Shown: positions 1-11,900 of the stretch, piece after piece
Layout of the letters: every line of letters starts with the position of its first letter
How positions within the stretch are numbered: the first letter of the stretch is position 1
Origin: Trueperaceae bacterium
GTDB lineage: Bacteria > Deinococcota > Deinococci > Deinococcales > Trueperaceae
DNA: 32,068 bases
Assembly: GCA_036381035.1 (NCBI GenBank)
Contig: DASVDQ010000045.1
Coordinates: 1-32,068, forward strand
Direction: 5' to 3'
Program-made: the position numbers and the translations under genes
The notes under the pieces: model-generated
Database searches by the model: none
Told to the model about the DNA's origin: nothing
The model's input: only the letters and a program-made list of their open reading frames with translations

Positions 1-249
1 GGCTTCCATCCGCTGCGACCACGCGGCCATGCCGGCCGCGTACCGCTCCGCTAAGCGGCCGGCGGCGCTCTCGATTCGGAACCACTCAGGCGACGCCTGC
101 TCTAGCAGGCCTATAAGCTCCTCCCGGCGGGCGCGTAGAGCGGGGGAGAGGAACGTCTCTGCCGTCTCCGTAGCCGTGATTAGCGCCTCGCCGGCGTGCG
201 GCCGGCCGGCCTCCAGGCGGGCCAAGCGGGCGCGGACGCGCCTAGACAT
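1..249 (-). CDS. Unrecognised element protein, C-terminus cut by window edge
   Basis: An open frame starts at ATG 249 and runs off the left edge of the window, giving at least 83 residues. The visible part begins MSRRVRARLARLEAGRPH and is charged and helical with no motif I recognise. The start overlaps the TAG stop of the upstream gene by 8 bases (CATGTCTAG), the packing typical of phage and plasmid operons, so the two are probably cotranscribed and translationally coupled. It is the last visible gene of a minus-strand operon reading away from attR. I cannot assign a function. The frame, the overlap and the codon use shared with its neighbours (including CTA leucine codons) are the reasons for calling it real. 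Confidence 0.55.
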   Translation of the reverse strand, partial: MSRRVRARLARLEAGRPHAGEALITATETAETFLSPALRARREELIGLLEQASPEWFRIESAAGRLAERYAAGMAAWSQRMEA

Positions 250-499
250 GCGCGGATGCTCTCAGTTGCGCCTCTAGCGCTTCCAGGCGGGGCAGTAGCT
301 CGGCCTGCTCATGCACGCGGGCGTAGGCGCCGCCGAGGGTCGCCACGGCATTGCAGGCTCTCAGCACGTCCGCCGGGGTCGCTTCCGGGTCGCGCATGAC
401 TTCCTCTGCGGCCAGGAGGGCGCCCCACATGACACGACGTAGGGCGCCAATATCCCCCGCCTTACGGCGCCTAAGACGCGGCGTTCTCGCGTTGCTCAC
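242..499 (-). CDS. Small helical element protein, unknown function
   Basis: This frame encodes 85 residues from GTG 499, with a weak Shine-Dalgarno (GGAAG) 4 nt upstream. The product has a basic N-terminus (residues about 5-13 are rich in Arg and Lys) followed by alpha-helical sequence with a heptad-like C-terminal stretch (LLPRLEALEAQLRA). I see no domain that I can name. Small helical proteins with a basic head are common near packaging or replication genes in phages, but that is context only. It lies 27 bp after the 248-aa gene and overlaps the next gene by 8 bp. Confidence 0.55.
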   Translation of the reverse strand: MSNARTPRLRRRKAGDIGALRRVMWGALLAAEEVMRDPEATPADVLRACNAVATLGGAYARVHEQAELLPRLEALEAQLRASAHV

Positions 500-526
500 G
501 GCACTTCCTCCGCCTACCCCGGGGGG

Positions 527-1273
527 TCACGCCCTGCGGCTCCTGAGCGTGAAGGCTCGAGTCTCGCTCAGCACGTAAGGGATGCGGGCGGCGGCCGCGT
601 ACCGCTGGCGGCGGTCCCACTCGCGCCGGCCGCGCTCGTCTAGCAGGCGCGGCATGAGGTCGGCGCGGGCGTGCGCCCACTCGATCAGAGGCCCGTGCGC
701 GACGTTCTGGCCGGCCGCGCCACCCCGCACGTTGTCGCTGCGCTGGGCGCGTGAGCGGATGTAGTTCGTACCCCACTCGGTCGCCACCAGTAGGTAGCTC
801 ACCATAGGGTCGGCGTCGTGCTCGACTAGTTCGCGCATCCGGCGGGGTAGCTGCGCCGGCGCCACGCCGTCTAGCAGCATGCGGGCGTCACTGCGGGCGT
901 TCGCCAGCTTCGCTTCCAGCAGCACCGGGTCGTCCACTGGTGGGCGCACTTCCGGAGGGCGAGTTTCGCCGGCCAGGTCACGCGCGGCGGCCTCGGCAGC
1001 GGCTACCTGCGCGGCGCTGGCTTCGCTCCAGGCGGCCAGGACCTCGGCGGCGCGGGCGGTCTTACCCTCTGCGGTCAGGTGCGGGTCCGTCTGGACGTCG
1101 TGCAGGTCGGCGTCTAGCTTGGTGAGGTCCTGGTAGAAGCCCGTAGCGGCCGCCTCCAGTCGCTCCAGCTTGGGATCATTGGGCGCGGACTTTCGTATGG
1201 CTCGGAGGTCGGCTAGTGCGCTTTCGCGCAGGACGCCGATCGTGCGGGGATTGAAGGTTGGCGCGGTCGTCAT
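527..1273 (-). CDS. Hypothetical 248-aa element protein, coiled-coil rich
   Basis: The ATG at 1273 has a GAAGG ribosome site about 2 nt upstream. Residues about 30-110 are Ala/Glu/Leu rich and likely form long helices or a coiled coil. A proline-rich hinge follows (about residues 105-117, RPPEVRPPVDD), then a second helical domain with WGTNYIRSR near residue 168. There is no signal peptide or membrane segment. I do not recognise the family. Position and composition would suit a phage scaffold-like or structural accessory protein, but nothing in the sequence proves that. The gene lies 17 bp downstream of the HTH gene in the same direction and is probably cotranscribed with it. Confidence 0.6.
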   Translation of the reverse strand: MTTAPTFNPRTIGVLRESALADLRAIRKSAPNDPKLERLEAAATGFYQDLTKLDADLHDVQTDPHLTAEGKTARAAEVLAAWSEASAAQVAAAEAAARDLAGETRPPEVRPPVDDPVLLEAKLANARSDARMLLDGVAPAQLPRRMRELVEHDADPMVSYLLVATEWGTNYIRSRAQRSDNVRGGAAGQNVAHGPLIEWAHARADLMPRLLDERGRREWDRRQRYAAAARIPYVLSETRAFTLRSRRA

Positions 1274-1290
1274 GCCTTCACCGTAGGGGT

Positions 1291-1560
1291 CTAGGCGGCG
1301 GCGCCTTCGACGTTGGCCATGTCGGCCACGTCGGCCACTTTGGCCAGCGTTGCCGCCTGCCAGTCCGGCTCGATCAGCATCAGGCGGGCGACACGTTCCA
1401 CCTCGGAGACGGGTATGGACCAGGGTGACTGCCTGAACAGCCTCACGCCCCGTATGGCTCCCCGCGCCAGGTGCCGCCGCAGTGTGCGCTCAGGGATGCC
1501 TAGCGCGGCCGAGGCCTCGCGGACCGTGAGCGGTTCGGAGGGGCGGTCGCCAGCGCTCAC
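1291..1560 (-). CDS. Helix-turn-helix DNA-binding protein (excisionase/MerR-like fold)
   Basis: The chosen start is GTG 1560, because GGAGG sits 8 nt upstream; the TTG at 1575 would precede that site. The 89-aa product has a clear HTH near residues 12-40 (LTVREASAALGIPERTLRRH) followed by a wing-like RLFRQSPWSIPVSEVERVARL. This pattern is typical of excisionase-family or terminase small-subunit-like DNA-binding domains. The C-terminus is Ala/Val rich. The 129-bp leader upstream has no gene and contains a perfect inverted repeat (1638-1657), suggesting a separate promoter and possibly self-regulation. Roles as excisionase, repressor or small terminase are all possible, and the sequence does not decide between them. 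Confidence 0.65.
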   Translation of the reverse strand: MSAGDRPSEPLTVREASAALGIPERTLRRHLARGAIRGVRLFRQSPWSIPVSEVERVARLMLIEPDWQAATLAKVADVADMANVEGAAA

Positions 1561-1637
1561 TGCGCCGGCCTCCAAGGGGGTAGCCCGCCGGCCGTAGACG
1601 CCCCGTCAGGCGGTAGGGCAGGGGCGAAAGTGGGCGC

Positions 1638-1657
1638 CTGATAATCCCACTTATCAG
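1638..1657. promoter_or_regulatory. Inverted repeat CTGATAA-N6-TTATCAG, candidate operator
   Basis: Perfect 7-bp arms are separated by TCCCAC in the 129-bp gap upstream of the HTH gene (1561-1689). The arms are AT-rich against a GC-rich background. The likely role is an operator for the adjacent HTH protein or another element repressor. No convincing -35/-10 pair was identified, and the remainder of the gap shows nothing else. Confidence 0.4.
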
Positions 1658-1689
1658 TGACGATGAAGGGGTATGCGGCATGCGCGGCG

Positions 1690-1956
1690 CTATGCATCTT
1701 CGCCCTCCGCGCGTGCCGCCTCGGCCTGGAGTCTAGCGCGTTCCAGTTCGACGCTCACTCGGAACGCGGCGTTGCGGTGCCGCCGCGCGGCTTCTAGGTA
1801 CCGGCGCTTGGCGTCTTTCACGTGATCCTCGCTTGCCACGCCTAGCTGGTACGCGGCCTCGGCGCGGGCAGCAAGCTCCAGCGCGGCGGCGGCCGCCATG
1901 GCCAGCCGACCGATAGGGTCACGCCTTGTCTCGCCGTTGGCGTCGTCACGTGGCAT
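1690..1956 (-). CDS. Small alanine-rich helical element protein
   Basis: This frame encodes 88 residues from ATG 1956, with the start overlapping the end of the upstream gene by 11 bases. The protein is almost entirely predicted helix, Ala/Arg/Glu rich (for example LELAARAEAAYQLG and ARRHRNAAFRVSVELERARLQ), and has no recognised domain. Low complexity makes the call less secure, but the overlap with the upstream frame, the direction shared with the operon and the lack of a competing frame support it. The function is unknown. Confidence 0.5.
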   Translation of the reverse strand: MPRDDANGETRRDPIGRLAMAAAAALELAARAEAAYQLGVASEDHVKDAKRRYLEAARRHRNAAFRVSVELERARLQAEAARAEGEDA

Positions 1957-2305
1957 GCGGGACGCTCCGGCGGGGATGCCATACGGCTAGAGCAACGGCC
2001 ACCGGGCGCGGCGAGGTCGCTACGCGTGCCGGCAGGCCAGGAACGATAGGGGCGAGGGTCGCACCTGCGTGTGACTGGCCGGGGTCGTGCACGGTCAGGA
2101 AGTCTCCAGCGGCGGGGTCGCGCATCAGCACCAGGTCGCCCGCCTGCGGCTCCAGTTCGTCGCAGAGGACCAGCATGGTGCCGACCGGCGCGAGGTCGTG
2201 CGCTTCGGGCGTGGCTTGGTCCGCGCCTGTCACGCGCCGTAGGCGCAGGGCCTTGGCCGGGTAGTGCTCAGGGATGGTGCGGGTGGTCGTGGCGGCGTTG
2301 CTCAT
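1946..2305 (-). CDS. Small element protein with weak S24/LexA-like C-terminal pattern
   Basis: A longer open frame extends to 2458, but the start at ATG 2305 (MSNAATTT) is preferred: it has GAGGG just upstream and leaves an 85-bp intergenic space. The product is 119 aa. Residues about 40-65 (VGTMLVLCDELEPQAGDLVL) loosely resemble the S24 peptidase fold of phage repressors (G-S-M...GD.VL), followed by a beta-rich end with VAVALAVWHP. However, the catalytic Ser would be Thr and no catalytic Lys is visible, so self-cleavage activity is unlikely. It may be a degenerate repressor C-domain or an unrelated beta-barrel. The fold assignment is tentative; that it is a gene is more secure. Confidence 0.5.
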   Translation of the reverse strand: MSNAATTTRTIPEHYPAKALRLRRVTGADQATPEAHDLAPVGTMLVLCDELEPQAGDLVLMRDPAAGDFLTVHDPGQSHAGATLAPIVPGLPARVATSPRPVAVALAVWHPRRSVPHAT

Positions 2306-2343
2306 GCCCTCAGTCTCCACCGCTCCGCCGTGCCCGTTCTGCA

Positions 2344-2373
2344 TAAACTGCATGTGCATCGGCCGTGTGCAAC
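2344..2373 (-). promoter_or_regulatory. Putative promoter/operator region with motifs shared with 3784-3844
   Basis: The 85-bp gap 2306-2390 carries a weak minus-strand TTGCAC (2372-2367), 17 nt upstream of AGTTTA. It also holds TGTGCAAC (2366-2373) next to ATGTGCATCGGCCG (2352-2365). Both motifs recur in the only other long regulatory gap of the element (TGTGCAAC at 3784-3791, the 14-mer at 3831-3844). This suggests a common regulator controls both promoters. The -10 match is poor. Confidence 0.35.
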
Positions 2374-2390
2374 TTTTTCCCACGCCGCCG

Positions 2391-2759
2391 TCATGCGGCC
2401 GCCAGGTCGGCCAGGACTTCCCAATCAACGGGCCAGCCCTCAGCCTCCAGCCGCGCAAGTTCGGAGGTCAGTACGTATCGGCGGCGCCGGCTGCGGTGTT
2501 GGACGAACGCGATCTCGCGCCGGTCCATGCGCCCGCGAAGCATGCCCTCGCTCCAGGCCAGCGCGGCGGCGGCATACGACGGCGGCAAGAGGGTAGGCAG
2601 GCCTACGGGGACGCCGTAAGGGTTTCGCGGCCAGTCGGCGGCTGTGTTGCCGTCAGGCTCGAACCTCACACGACACTCGGCGCATGTGGGTGCCTCGGCT
2701 GATAGAACGGCCGCGCCGCAGCCGGGGCAGACGTAGCGGGTAGCAGTTGCAGTCAGCAT
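2391..2759 (-). CDS. Zinc-ribbon protein downstream of the replication initiator
   Basis: This frame encodes 122 aa from ATG 2759, which overlaps the stop of the initiator gene by 7 bases (ATGCTGA), so the two are probably translationally coupled. Two CxxC knuckles (Cys11, Cys14, Cys26, Cys29; CPGC and CAEC) form a rubredoxin-like zinc ribbon. The rest is a helical domain with a basic patch (RSRRRRYVL, about residues 89-97) suited to nucleic-acid contact. In lambdoid phages the gene following O encodes the helicase loader P. This protein occupies that place but shows no AAA+ motif and no similarity to P that I can see. A replication accessory or regulatory role is inferred from context alone. 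Confidence 0.6.
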   Translation of the reverse strand: MLTATATRYVCPGCGAAVLSAEAPTCAECRVRFEPDGNTAADWPRNPYGVPVGLPTLLPPSYAAAALAWSEGMLRGRMDRREIAFVQHRSRRRRYVLTSELARLEAEGWPVDWEVLADLAAA

Positions 2760-3574
2760 GGCTGGCTCGCTTCCGCGGATCGCTTGTCCTCAGCGTCGCC
2801 TTGGCCGTCAGCACGGGTCATCGGCCAGTCGGGAGCGGCCGGCCAGCCCAACTGCGGGTTGTATCTGGCGGATACAGCATTAGTGACTGAGTACCTGGTT
2901 CTCTGACTACCTTCCCCCCTGACTGCATCTCTTGCTCTTATGGGCGGGCCCGGTTCGTCCCGTCCTGGGCGGGCTTCCGGCGATTCATGCTGTATCCCGC
3001 AGATACGGTCCCCTGTATCTGGCGGATACAGGCCGTGAGGGTCCGTATCCCACGGATACAGCGCCTCGGTGGCCTCCACTGACTCAGCAGTGGTAGCCAG
3101 GTCATCGGCTTCCAGCAACTCAGGCCCTGTAGAGAGATCATCGCCCTCGGCCGGCCCCGCGGCCGCCACCGGCGCTGTGCCGTCCATGCCTGTTAGCTTG
3201 ACGAGCTGAGTCTTGTTCTCAGGGCCAAGTACGTAGACGGACGGCCCGGGACTGGTGTGGTCAAGCTTCGCAAGTAAGCCCCGGGCGCTCAGCCATGCGA
3301 CGGCCCGAGGCACGCTCGCCTCGCTTACGCCGGCACGCACGGCCAGGTCCCGCCGGCTAATAGCGATGAGCGCCCGTTGGCGGCTGTCTAGCCGTACCAG
3401 TTGCCGGTTGCCCGGCCGGTCCATCCGGTAGGCGAGACGCCACAACGCCCAAAGGACCTCGCGTGCGGGCAGTGGCACTCTGACCAGCGCATCAAGCACA
3501 GCGTCATGCGCCGCCGTGTAGTCGCTCGCAGGTCGCAGCCAATGGGGGAGGCGATTCTGGTATGCTTTTGACAC
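2753..3574 (-). CDS. Replication initiator-like winged-helix protein (phage O-like)
   Basis: The start chosen is GTG 3574 (VSKAYQNRL), 11 nt after GGGAG (3590-3586); GTG 3586 would overlap that site and the frame opens as far up as 3727. The 273-aa product has an N-terminal winged HTH (about residues 75-115; RRDLAVRAGVSEASVPRAV, then ARGLLAKLD). A low-complexity acidic linker follows, then a Tyr/Pro/Asp-rich central part. Four iteron-like palindromes lie within the coding sequence (residues about 172-195 and 233-238). That is the layout of lambda O: DNA-binding N-domain, origin iterons in mid-gene, C-domain contacting the next replication protein. The assignment rests on architecture and gene order, not on recognised identity. 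A plasmid Rep with an internal origin is the alternative. Confidence 0.6.
   Translation of the reverse strand: MSKAYQNRLPHWLRPASDYTAAHDAVLDALVRVPLPAREVLWALWRLAYRMDRPGNRQLVRLDSRQRALIAISRRDLAVRAGVSEASVPRAVAWLSARGLLAKLDHTSPGPSVYVLGPENKTQLVKLTGMDGTAPVAAAGPAEGDDLSTGPELLEADDLATTAESVEATEALYPWDTDPHGLYPPDTGDRICGIQHESPEARPGRDEPGPPIRARDAVRGEGSQRTRYSVTNAVSARYNPQLGWPAAPDWPMTRADGQGDAEDKRSAEASQPC
2861..3059. other. Candidate replication origin: four iterons plus low-GC patch
   Basis: Four copies of the hyphenated palindrome GTATC-N5-GATAC lie at 2861-2875, 2992-3006, 3015-3029 and 3045-3059. The third extends to perfect 8-bp arms (3012-3032). Read in alternating orientation they fit GTATCC-N3-(A/G)GATAC. 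Between the first and second copies, bases 2881-2940 are 50% GC with one strand pyrimidine-rich, against roughly two thirds GC nearby, and could be the unwinding element. The whole block is inside the putative initiator gene, as in lambda. No experiment-like proof is visible in sequence. Confidence 0.5.
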
Positions 3575-3635
3575 CGCGCTTATCACTCCCTTTGGGGAGG
3601 CCGTTGCCCCGGTTGTCGCCGGGGCTTCTTCTTTC
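3573..3635 (+). ncRNA. Candidate antisense RNA over the initiator translation start
   Basis: On the plus strand an extended -10 (TGGTATGCT, 3558-3566) predicts a start near 3573. An intrinsic terminator follows: arms GCCCCGG/CCGGGGC (3606-3612, 3619-3625), then TTCTTCTTTC. The roughly 60-nt RNA would be complementary to the initiator GTG (3574) and its ribosome site. It also contains a 5-bp hairpin CTCCC-TTTG-GGGAG (3586-3599), whose UUUG loop fits the YUNR U-turn motif of antisense regulators. On the mRNA the same hairpin would pair the Shine-Dalgarno sequence. The call is inferred from the coincidence of promoter, stem-loops and terminator. Confidence 0.4.
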
Positions 3636-3717
3636 GCCTCCCAAGTGGGCGCTCGGGACCTGTGTCGCCCTACGCTCCTACCGGCAATTCTACCAGAGTT
3701 CGATGCAGTACCCGCGG

Positions 3718-3801
3718 AGTATAACAACTGTTATAGGGGCTCGGCGGCGAGTTACTACAGTTGTAGTAGTTACCCTTAGCCGTTGTGCAACATTTTGCAC
3801 A
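3718..3801 (-). promoter_or_regulatory. Initiator operon promoter with three phased palindromes
   Basis: Three inverted repeats are centred at 3727.5 (TATAACA-AC-TGTTATA, 3720-3735), 3760.5 (TACTACA-GT-TGTAGTA, 3753-3768) and 3792.5 (TGTGCAA-CATT-TTGCACA, 3784-3801). Their spacing of 33 and 32 bp is about three helical turns. The first two share T-N3-ACA-N2-TGT-N3-A. A minus-strand extended -10 (TGTTATACT, 3726-3718) overlaps the first palindrome, so a bound repressor would block it; no good -35 is visible. The leader to the GTG at 3574 would be about 135 nt. Confidence 0.45.
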
Positions 3802-3868
3802 CACCGGCGTGTAATGCTCCGCCAGGGGCAATGTGCATCGGCCGAGGCCGGCCCTCGGCTACCCGGTC

Positions 3869-3890
3869 TGGACCCCCTAGTGGACCCCCT
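3869..3890. repeat. Direct repeats TGGACCCCCT, possible integrase arm sites
   Basis: Two exact 10-bp copies (3869-3878 and 3881-3890) are 12 bp apart, about 120 bp inside the tRNA remnant. Closer to it is a second direct repeat, GGTGCGAAA/GGTGCAAAG (3977-3985 and 3987-3995). Tyrosine integrases of tRNA-targeting elements bind short arm-type repeats in this position. The assignment is positional; no integrase gene is in the window. Confidence 0.3.
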
Positions 3891-4005
3891 TGCGCCATGC
3901 CAAGAGTCGCCGCAAGGCTTGGCAGGCGCCGGCTGTGTAGGCAGTAGGCGCCGTCGTGAACGTAATCTTGAGATGTGGTGCGAAACGGTGCAAAGGTCCT
4001 TCCAG

Positions 4006-4053
4006 CGATTCGTAATCGGCAGGTCGTCGGTTCGAATCCGACCGTTGGCTCCA
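4006..4053 (+). other. attR: 3' remnant of tRNA-Thr(CGT)
   Basis: The 3' part of a tRNA is present: anticodon loop TTCGTAA with CGT at 4011-4013, variable loop, a perfect T-arm (GTCGG-TTCGAAT-CCGAC, 4026-4042), acceptor strand CGTTGGC, discriminator T4050 and encoded CCA (4051-4053). The 5' half is missing: the anticodon stem mismatches beyond 4006 and no GCCAACG acceptor strand occurs upstream. This is the duplicated tRNA end left by site-specific integration, so the element lies to the left and the intact tRNA beyond the window. The stretch 3802-4005 holds only the repeats noted at 3869-3890 and 3977-3995; 4093-4205 shows nothing. Confidence 0.75.
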
Positions 4054-8900: not shown

Positions 8901-11900
8901 GAGATCAGCCGCTGCGCCGTGCGCCAGCGCGCCGAGTCGAGGCCCAGGCGCTCCAGCTCGAGGCCGGCGCGCTCGGCGGCGCGCTCCAGCGCGCGGTCCA
9001 CGGCGGCGAGCGTGCCCACGTAGGCCATCGCGGCCTCGGTGTCGGCGCGCGAGCGACCCGCGGCGGCCACGAAGGCGAGCCTCGAGGTGCCGTGGGCCCT
9101 GACTGTGAGCCCGGCGCGCAGGGCGACGACGGGGTCGAGCGGGTTGGTCACGACCCCGCCGAGGGGAGAGGGTCCGCGCAAGGCGGCGGGCAGCCGGTAG
9201 TCGCCCCAACGCCCGAGGAAGCGCTCCCTGTCCGTCTCGATGCTCACGGCCGGCTCCCGGCCCACGGGCGCGACGACGGCGTGGCGCCACACGACCTCGG
9301 CGTCGCGCGGCGAGCGCCGGCGGCGCCTCAGCTCCACCACGCCCGGCGCGGGCTCGCTCGCCTCGACGAAGAGCTTGACGAACGCCGGGTGGCGACGGTC
9401 CTCGCCGTCCGGCGCCAGCACCGGCTCCGCCGCTCGGGTCAGCGCCAGGCGACGCGGGCGGCCCTCCAGCTCGCCCACCTCGACGCGCCACAGCTCGACG
9501 TCGTGGTCGGGGTCCACGGCGGCGTCCACCGTCACGAGCAGCCCGTCGCCCCTGACCCGGTACCTGATGACGTGGGGCAGCACCTCGACCTCGAAGCCCG
9601 CCGCCGCGGCGGCGCCGGGCGCGAGCAGCGGCCTGGTCGTCCCGGCGTCGAGGTCGGTGAGGTAGAGCCACTGGCCGCCTGCGGGCAGCACGGGGTCGGG
9701 CCGCCAGCGCGACAGGGCCACGCCGCGCCACTGGGCCTTGCCGCCGCCGCGGTCGTCGAGCAGGAGCTGGTAGCGTCCGTTGCCGAGCGGGAACGCTAGC
9801 GGCATGCGCCCGCGCGGCACGACGTGCCACGGCTCCACGCGGACGGGGCGCCCGCCAGGCGGCAGCTCCCCGGCGCGGGCGTGCTCCGGCCTCTCCAGCG
9901 GTCCGGCCAGCGGCGTGCGCTCGTAGAGCACCGGCGCCACGGCCGCGACCCTGGCGTCGGCGTGGAAGCGCGACGGCAGGTCGGCGCCCGCCACGGCGTT
10001 GCCCAGCGCGTTGAGGACCATGGCCTGGTGGTGCGCCATGTAGGTGCGGACGACCACGGCGGGCTTGCCGAGCGGCAGGCGGGCGGGCGTGAAGTCGACG
10101 GCGTCGTAGAGCCCGTAGATGCCGCGGGCACCGTGCGCCTCGAGCGCGTCGAGGTTCTCCAGCACGGCCTGGGGCGCCACGGGCAGGGCGAGCACGGACG
10201 CGTAGGGGGCGATCACGTGGTCGCGGACGTCGCGTCGCAGGGCGAGGTCCTCGACGCCGAACGCCCTGTACTGGTACTCGCCGTCGGCGCCCACCAGGGC
10301 GAACGCCGACTCGGACACGCCCCACGGCGTGCCCCTGGCGCGGGCGTGCGCGCGCTGGGCGTTGACGGCGTTGACGCAGGCGTCGTGGAGCAGGGTCCAG
10401 CGCGGCATGCGCGTGAGCAGAGGCGGCATCAGGTACTCGAAGGCGGTGCCGCTCCACGACAGCAGGGCGCGGCGGCCGCCCACGCCGCCGAAGGGGCGCG
10501 ACAGGTGCACCCAGTGGTCCGTCGGCACCCGGCCGAGCGCGATGGCGACGAGGCTCAGCAGGCGGGACTCCGAGGCGAGCATGTCGTAGGCGGGCTCGTC
10601 GAGGTCGTCCTCGTCTGGCCGGTAGCCCAGCCGGAAGACGCGCCGCCAGTCGTCGAAGAGGAAGTCGAGCTCGGTCTCCGCCACGAAGCCCTCGCACAGC
10701 GTGGCCAGGTGGGCTGTGGTCTCGAGGGTCGTGCGCAGCAGGTCCTCGGCGGCGTCGACGGCGCGGCGCAGGCGGTCGCACCACTCGACGACGCCGTGCT
10801 GTCCGAGACCGCCCAGGCCCGTGGCCGCGGCGGAGCGCAGCTCGGTCAGGAGCTCCCTGACGCGTCCGTACACGGCCGGCAGCTCCGCCAGCGGCACGCT
10901 CACCGGGAGCGAGGAGAGCGCGTCCCTCGTCCGGCCGACCTCGGTCGCCTCCTGCGCCCGTCGCAGCGCCGTGGGCGCCTCGGCGAGGGCGCGGTGCCAC
11001 GGCAGCAGGAGGGCGACGTCGCGGTCGATGGCCTCGGCGTCGGCGACCACGCGGCGGCGCCACTCGGCGAGGGCCGCGAGCTCGTCGGCCCTGAAGCGGC
11101 GGGTGCCCCGCAGCAGCGGCAGCACGCTCTCGTCCACCTCGGCGAGGCGCCTCCGCATGGTCCCGAGCAGCTCCGGCCAGCGGTGCTCGTCGTCGAGGGC
11201 CGCGGCGACCTCGGAGCGCAGGGCGGCGAGCAGCTCCACCGTGCGCCCCCCTGGGTCGACCGCGCCCACCACGTCGCCGGCCACGCCCAGGCTGTCGAGG
11301 AGGCCCTCCCAGCGCTCGCGCCGCCACGCCCGCTTGCCGGGCAGCTCGAGCAGCGCCTGCCGCAGCGTCAGCAGCGCGGCCAGGAGGTTGCCGCTGTCGA
11401 CCGCCGAGACGTAGCGGGGCCGCAGCGGCCTCAGGGTCCTCGTGTCGTACCAGTTCAGGAAGTGGCCCCTGACGCGCTCGAGGCGGCCCAGCGTCTCGAA
11501 CGCGCGCGCCAGGCGCGCCGTGAGCCCCACGAGGCCGAGGTAGCCGAGGTCGTAGGCCGTGACGCACGACGTGAGGTAGAGGCCGACGTTCGTCGGGGAG
11601 GTGCGGTGCGCCACCGTCGCCAGCGGCTCCTCCTGGAAGTGGTCGGGCGGCAGCCAGTTGTCCTCCGGCCCGACGAAGCGCTCGAAGAAGTGCCACGTCT
11701 GACGGGCCAGGCGCCGCAGCCTGGCGCGCTGCCGCCGGCTGGGCACGTAGGCCTGCTCGGGGACGCTCCGCCCGGTGACGGCGGCCAGCCACGGCGCGAC
11801 CGTCCACAGCGCCAGCACCCACGCGGCGCCGGCCACGGCGCCGGGTGAGAGCGCCGGCAGGGCCACCGCCAGCGCCAGGGCGAGGAGCGGTGAGACGGCC

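Follow-up and report, generated by a model that had tools for sequence, protein, structure and literature searches.

Replication origins that lie inside the gene of their own initiator have been documented for lambda/Stx O (PMC7466680), for 80alpha ORF20 and SPP1 G38P (PMC5499656) and for pSK41 Rep (PMC5703833). Lambda O has an N-terminal DNA-binding domain, four 18-bp dyad-symmetric iterons in mid-gene at 20-24 bp spacing, and an adjacent opening region (PMC7466680). In 80alpha, a mid-gene palindrome cluster (CCAACGTTGG, CCGTTAACGG and others) lies inside the annotated rep_origin, and ORF20 is not complementable in trans (PMC5499656). In pSK41 Rep (RepA_N), the winged-helix N-domain binds four central Rep boxes, and the origin itself codes for the linker; pPR9 Rep has an HTH_36 N-domain (PMC5703833). 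A further family, referred to here as L009, comprises HTH_36/DnaD-like initiators of Staphylococcus and Listeria phages (e.g. IME1318_01). Its genes encode a winged helix followed by palindromes, and many members carry the exact palindrome GTATC-N5-GATAC at 22-23 or 45 bp spacing.

Herein, we analysed a stretch of 32,068 nucleotides (the window) from a Trueperaceae bacterium, in which a minus-strand gene, rep, shows a comparable layout. We consider it highly likely that the product of rep initiates replication of an integrated element (prophage or satellite) and that an origin of the lambda O type lies inside the gene. The start site of the element's replication is very probably located within its initiator gene. 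The layout itself is already known; the protein and the host lineage are new. The features of the gene are as follows.

2753-3574, minus strand: rep, candidate replication initiator of 273 aa, with GTG at 3574 and the ORF open to 3727
3227-3463, minus strand: predicted winged helix-turn-helix domain, residues ~38-116 (AF2 model)
3284-3316, minus strand: predicted recognition helix, residues ~87-97, SEASVPRAVAWL region (AF2 model), resembling SEATAERSLQLL of L103
3045-3059, no strand assigned: palindrome 1, GTATCCCACGGATAC, exact GTATC-N5-GATAC and first in the direction of the gene
3015-3029, no strand assigned: palindrome 2, GTATCTGGCGGATAC, exact match
2992-3006, no strand assigned: palindrome 3, GTATCCCGCAGATAC, exact match
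2881-2940, no strand assigned: patch of 50% GC, purine-rich on the coding strand, a putative opening region
2861-2875, no strand assigned: palindrome 4, GTATCTGGCGGATAC, exact match

The four palindromes reported by the first-pass annotation, which was made from the sequence of the window, are all exact and lie within 199 bp inside the gene. Two of the four share an 18-bp identity (TGTATCTGGCGGATACAG). Together they span nt 515-714 of the 822-nt rep, a later position than the 0.39-0.48 of lambda. We counted the motif across the genome (3,433,486 bp, 170 contigs), and the four copies in rep were the only ones; no similar density was found elsewhere in the host. Base composition predicts ~0.35 copies per genome, and the reversed-pattern control gave 0 copies in the same 3.43 Mb. 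A repeated peptide or codon usage might be thought to generate such sites, and two of them do encode similar peptides (LYPWDT and LYPPDT). However, the four sites fall in reading frames 2, 2, 1 and 0 of rep and, being spread over three frames, are not a peptide repeat. Chance fares no better: in 20,000 synonymous-codon shuffles with the protein held fixed, 0, 1 or 2 sites arose but never four, and the four found against 0.35 expected genome-wide are packed into one short segment. The reading frames and the shuffles together rule out both a coding repeat and chance, to which we assign a negligible probability.

The palindromes flank the patch at 2881-2940, the order in the coding direction being three palindromes, the patch and one palindrome. 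The GC content of the patch is exactly 50%, compared with 65% for the rep gene and 68% for the element. On the coding strand, 68% of its bases are purines, a skew equalled in 32 of the 3,990 60-bp windows of the element. The composition, strand asymmetry and flanking sites described for this 60-bp patch were therefore confirmed, but it is not unique, since GC as low occurs in 83 of the 3,990 windows, including some upstream of the gene at 3650-3800 and around 3950. Third-codon-position GC over the palindromes and the patch is 0.50-0.55, against 0.60-0.80 in the rest of the gene, a drop that is expected where the DNA has a second function. Among the related palindrome arrays that we compared, purine asymmetry beside the array was no general feature. 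GC downstream of these arrays was lower than that of the gene (p ~4e-4) and not clearly lower than the GC upstream (p 0.07).

We then consider the protein. The AF2 model of Rep contains an N-terminal winged helix, which agrees with the earlier description of a winged-helix protein. The block-mean pLDDT is 72-87 over residues 71-120; the rest of the model is of low confidence, and the overall mean is 54.6. The top Foldseek matches of the model were MarR/CRP regulators and the plasmid initiator N-domain structures 4pt7/4pql, and the latter superposed on it with the lowest rmsd among these top matches (2.4). We take 4pt7 and 4pql to be staphylococcal RepA structures. The recognition helix of Rep (SEASVPR) is most like those of L103 and L010 (SEATAER), both of which also carry GTATC palindromes.

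At the sequence level, the winged helix of Rep is generic. Rep gave no profile match to Pfam Phage_rep_O (PF04492) or RepA_N, no match to HTH_36 (PF13730) at E<=0.01, and did not reach the threshold of the initiator PHROG families. HTH_Crp_2 matched with E 0.0028, below its cut-off, and an initiator profile scored the CRP-family regulator of the window better than Rep. Given this generic similarity, Rep could not be called an initiator with certainty from its sequence and fold, and the layout carries most of the weight. A protein search of genome contigs, 100 related genomes, phages and plasmids returned no close homologue of Rep. The sole close match was a 241-bp relic in an IMG/VR phage contig, L006, which ends before the palindromes. 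At 10000-10240 of this contig (IMGVR_UViG_3300027275_000001), the sequence is near-identical to window 3461-3671, which covers the rep promoter and N-terminus; it has a 30-bp tandem duplication and breaks off inside the gene. Replication genes of its own seem to be present on this contig, and the stretch is either a remnant of recombination or a chimera of the assembly.

Comparison with the described systems showed both likeness and difference. The parallel with lambda O, proposed in the first-pass annotation, holds in the sense of "works like": the locus has an N-terminal winged helix, iterons beyond the midpoint of the gene, a stretch of lower GC and an overlapping downstream gene. By sequence, Rep falls outside the lambda O family, and the repeat also differs as had been stated, the lambda iteron being ATCCCTCAAAACGAGGGA and that of rep GTATC-N5-GATAC. 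Moreover, the locus lacks a P-like loader and offers a low-GC patch (50% GC in a 65% GC gene) in place of an AT-rich tract as its putative opening region. The L009 proteins have 17% identity to Rep and belong to low-GC hosts. Their array is followed by a long C-terminal region annotated as DnaD-like, whereas only ~35 residues follow in Rep. The layout of 80alpha is like that of rep, with another half-site and with a DnaC-like loader gene after ORF20. The RepA_N and pPR9 Rep proteins differ in having a RepA_N or HTH_36 N-domain by sequence, a DnaG-binding C-domain and a plasmid context. Since intragenic origins are a known kind, the term "undescribed replicon" used for this locus is appropriate for the protein and the element but not for the type of origin.

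The gene lies in a segment with the following additional features.

4006-4053, plus strand: attachment site, 3' half of tRNA-Thr(CGT), the element/host junction (comparison with related genomes)
3575-4005, no strand assigned: regulatory region upstream of rep, internal to the element, with operator-like palindromes at 3720-3735 and 3753-3768
2391-2759, minus strand: overlapping downstream gene for a zinc-ribbon protein of 122 aa, with an ATGCTGA overlap with rep
1291-1575, minus strand: excisionase-like HTH protein of the element
527-1273, minus strand: gene common to a second element on contig C24 (34% identity)

In related genomes, an intact Asp-Phe-Thr tRNA cluster occupies this position and the match to the window starts at the same base, while no complete tRNA was found in the window. 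The shared start of the match at the tRNA-Thr half and the lack of a complete tRNA indicate that an integrated element is truncated by the start of the contig and that 1-4005 represents one of its ends. The excisionase-like protein further supports a mobile element. The tRNA-Thr half is present once, the other end of the element was not found in the assembly at the sensitivity used, and no tie was established between the rep element and the integrases on contigs C14, C23 and C99. Another prophage end is probably present in the genome at 1-7000 of L366 (contig C23), a lower-GC stretch with a tyrosine integrase that ends near a tRNA-Arg. The claim of a coupled downstream replication gene needs correction. 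The stop of rep overlaps the next gene, comparable to the 4-nt overlap between O and P of lambda, but the zinc-ribbon product has no recognisable similarity to a helicase loader. The element gave no Rfam match, and no sigma-70-like promoter was found in it. The near-perfect palindromes upstream of rep, TATAACA-AC-TGTTATA (3720-3735) and TACTACA-GT-TGTAGTA (3753-3768), look like repressor operators. In addition, TGTGCATCGGCCG is repeated at 2353-2365 and ~3833-3845, beside TTGCACA/GTGTGCAA motifs; both copies are intergenic in the element and could be shared regulatory sites.

The same genome holds a second integrated element at 6100-11501 of L375, which is cut by the end of contig C24. Its genes encode an AlpA/HTH_17 protein, a RepB_primase, a DUF3631 protein and a protein homologous to that of window 527-1273; no homologues of 530-1273 were found in viral contigs and phages. 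The two elements are probably of one type and differ in their replication modules. The presence of rep in one element and of RepB_primase and DUF3631 in the corresponding region of the other looks like a swap of replication modules. Such genes in the sister element are what would be expected if the rep segment is a replication module.

To see how far the arrangement recurs, we scanned IMG/VR for two copies of GTATC-N5-GATAC within 30 bp and used the reversed palindrome as a control. The paired palindrome occurred in 101 stretches and the reversed control in 12, and none of the 12 lay in an initiator gene. By our count from the lists of ORFs, ~71 of the 101 stretches have the array within an ORF that resembles an initiator and begins with a winged-helix domain. 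The array is located just after the winged helix, often at a relative gene position of 0.40-0.48. The contigs that encode these proteins range from 29 to 70% GC, and the 24 chosen representatives have 12-27% identity to Rep. When these were aligned with Rep (25 sequences), 18 matched a PHROG "replication initiation protein" family and 15 matched HTH_36. Phage_rep_O was matched by two, both of which bear GTATC and neither of which is Rep. No paired palindromes were found in 110 other genomes of the host phylum. Many of the pairs in cellular genomes fall between genes, and the motif is therefore not diagnostic of an origin when taken alone. In the literature searched, which lay mostly outside subscription journals, we found no mention of the palindrome as a phage origin motif. 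A Clostridiales MAG (JAQSXR; L126, L130, L133, L134, L143 and others) contains many dispersed intergenic TTGTATCA-N3-TGATACAA pairs, where the same palindrome perhaps has a different role, as operators or a mobile repeat.

The L009 family allowed the repeat to be compared with the protein that is presumed to read it. We gathered L009 homologues by protein alone, blind to the motif, which yielded 80 loci. At least two exact GTATC palindromes near the gene were found in only 21 of them. Many others have palindromes at the same positions in the gene (about +332, +354 and +377), built from the half-sites TGCTC, TACCC, GGTCA, GTGCC or TGTTC, and several groups have no clear perfect palindrome there. 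Loss of the palindromes from homologues that keep the protein, which the first-pass annotation had named as evidence against an origin, is thus seen in part in this distant family: most lose GTATC, yet many keep another palindrome in its place. A different palindrome at the same place supports the origin reading rather than refuting it. Furthermore, the half-site is paired with the start of the recognition helix. GTATC goes with SVIT, SLIT, SVMT or SLMT ([VL][IM]T), TGCTC with SNAT (NAT), TACCC with SENT (ENT), and GGTCA with GEST (EST). This pairing, a descriptive pattern in related sequences taken without phylogenetic correction, suggests that the repeat and the DNA-reading helix change together.

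By analogy with the described systems, we infer the following course from the computed features, namely the palindromes and their non-random occurrence, the predicted winged helix, the recurrence of the layout and the half-site/helix covariation in one other family. The element would first excise. The winged helix of Rep (residues ~38-116) would then bind the GTATC half-sites, probably as one dimer per palindrome. The half-site centres are 10 bp apart, or one helical turn, which would place both subunits on the same side of the double helix. Together, the array at 2992-3059 and the single site at 2861 may form an O-some-like complex, which would melt the low-GC stretch between them. The host helicase would be loaded at the opened stretch, and theta replication could follow.

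An alternative is that Rep is a transcriptional regulator that uses the palindromes as its own in-gene operators, for autoregulation or as a transcription roadblock, without any origin. Its winged helix, being of a generic type, has scores similar to those of CRP/MarR regulators. Palindromes of 15 bp with 5-bp half-sites are typical operators, and many such pairs are placed between genes in cellular genomes. However, the sites in rep are more than 500 bp inside the gene and away from the promoter, which has other palindromes beside it (3720-3768). In addition, the same palindrome recurs in the middle of phage genes whose products match replication-initiator profiles, and the annotated and genetically supported origin of 80alpha has the same layout. 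A regulator is unlikely on this evidence.

A role of the palindromes in partition (centromere-like), recombination or packaging appears highly unlikely. Clustered palindromes are also used in partition and packaging, and the element does encode an excisionase-like protein; against this, no ParA/ParB-like gene was recognised in the 4 kb of the element that is present, and in the related family the half-site covaries with the recognition helix that the same gene encodes, which points to the gene's own protein as the binder. It is also conceivable that the origin is there but dead, in a decaying remnant with a non-functional Rep, because only one end of the element is seen with no integrase beside it, and L006 contains a relic of this gene. 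The intact ORF, the four perfect palindromes and the open neighbouring frames leave this an even slighter probability. An origin inside the rep gene therefore remains our preferred reading.

This reading places a lambda-like intragenic origin in a GC-rich bacterial lineage, with a protein that has no known relatives. It also means that palindromes within a winged-helix gene can reveal an origin of this type even where close homologues are lacking. If the half-site changes with the recognition helix, a specificity code for phage origins becomes directly testable; such a code would assist the search for origins in phages and satellites that have not been cultured, as well as the construction of minireplicons for hosts without vectors. 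We tentatively propose, as an idea that we would doubt somewhat more than believe, that winged-helix phage initiators across phyla share an origin grammar. This would consist of in-gene 15-bp palindromes after the winged helix, each with two 5-bp half-sites 5 bp apart and placed at ~2, 3 or 4 helical turns. The half-site would be set by the N-terminal part of the recognition helix and could switch between close relatives, and GTATC would be a recurrent solution that was reached or kept in many lineages, including this element. If this were true, the sequence of an initiator could directly reveal its origin and the incompatibility group of that origin. A shared grammar with a switching half-site is a more interesting lead than a single new origin.

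Among host relatives, L242, L243 and L246 are among the strongest HTH_36 genes, and they carry 7, 6 and 4 palindromes, respectively, in arrays located just after the winged helix. The half-sites are GTGAA in L242, GTAAA/GTCAA in L243 and CGGAA in L246, and the spacing is mostly 21-23. At 1716-1865 of L242, seven GGTGAAC-N3-GTTCACC palindromes follow one another at 21-23 bp, which makes this an especially regular candidate origin.
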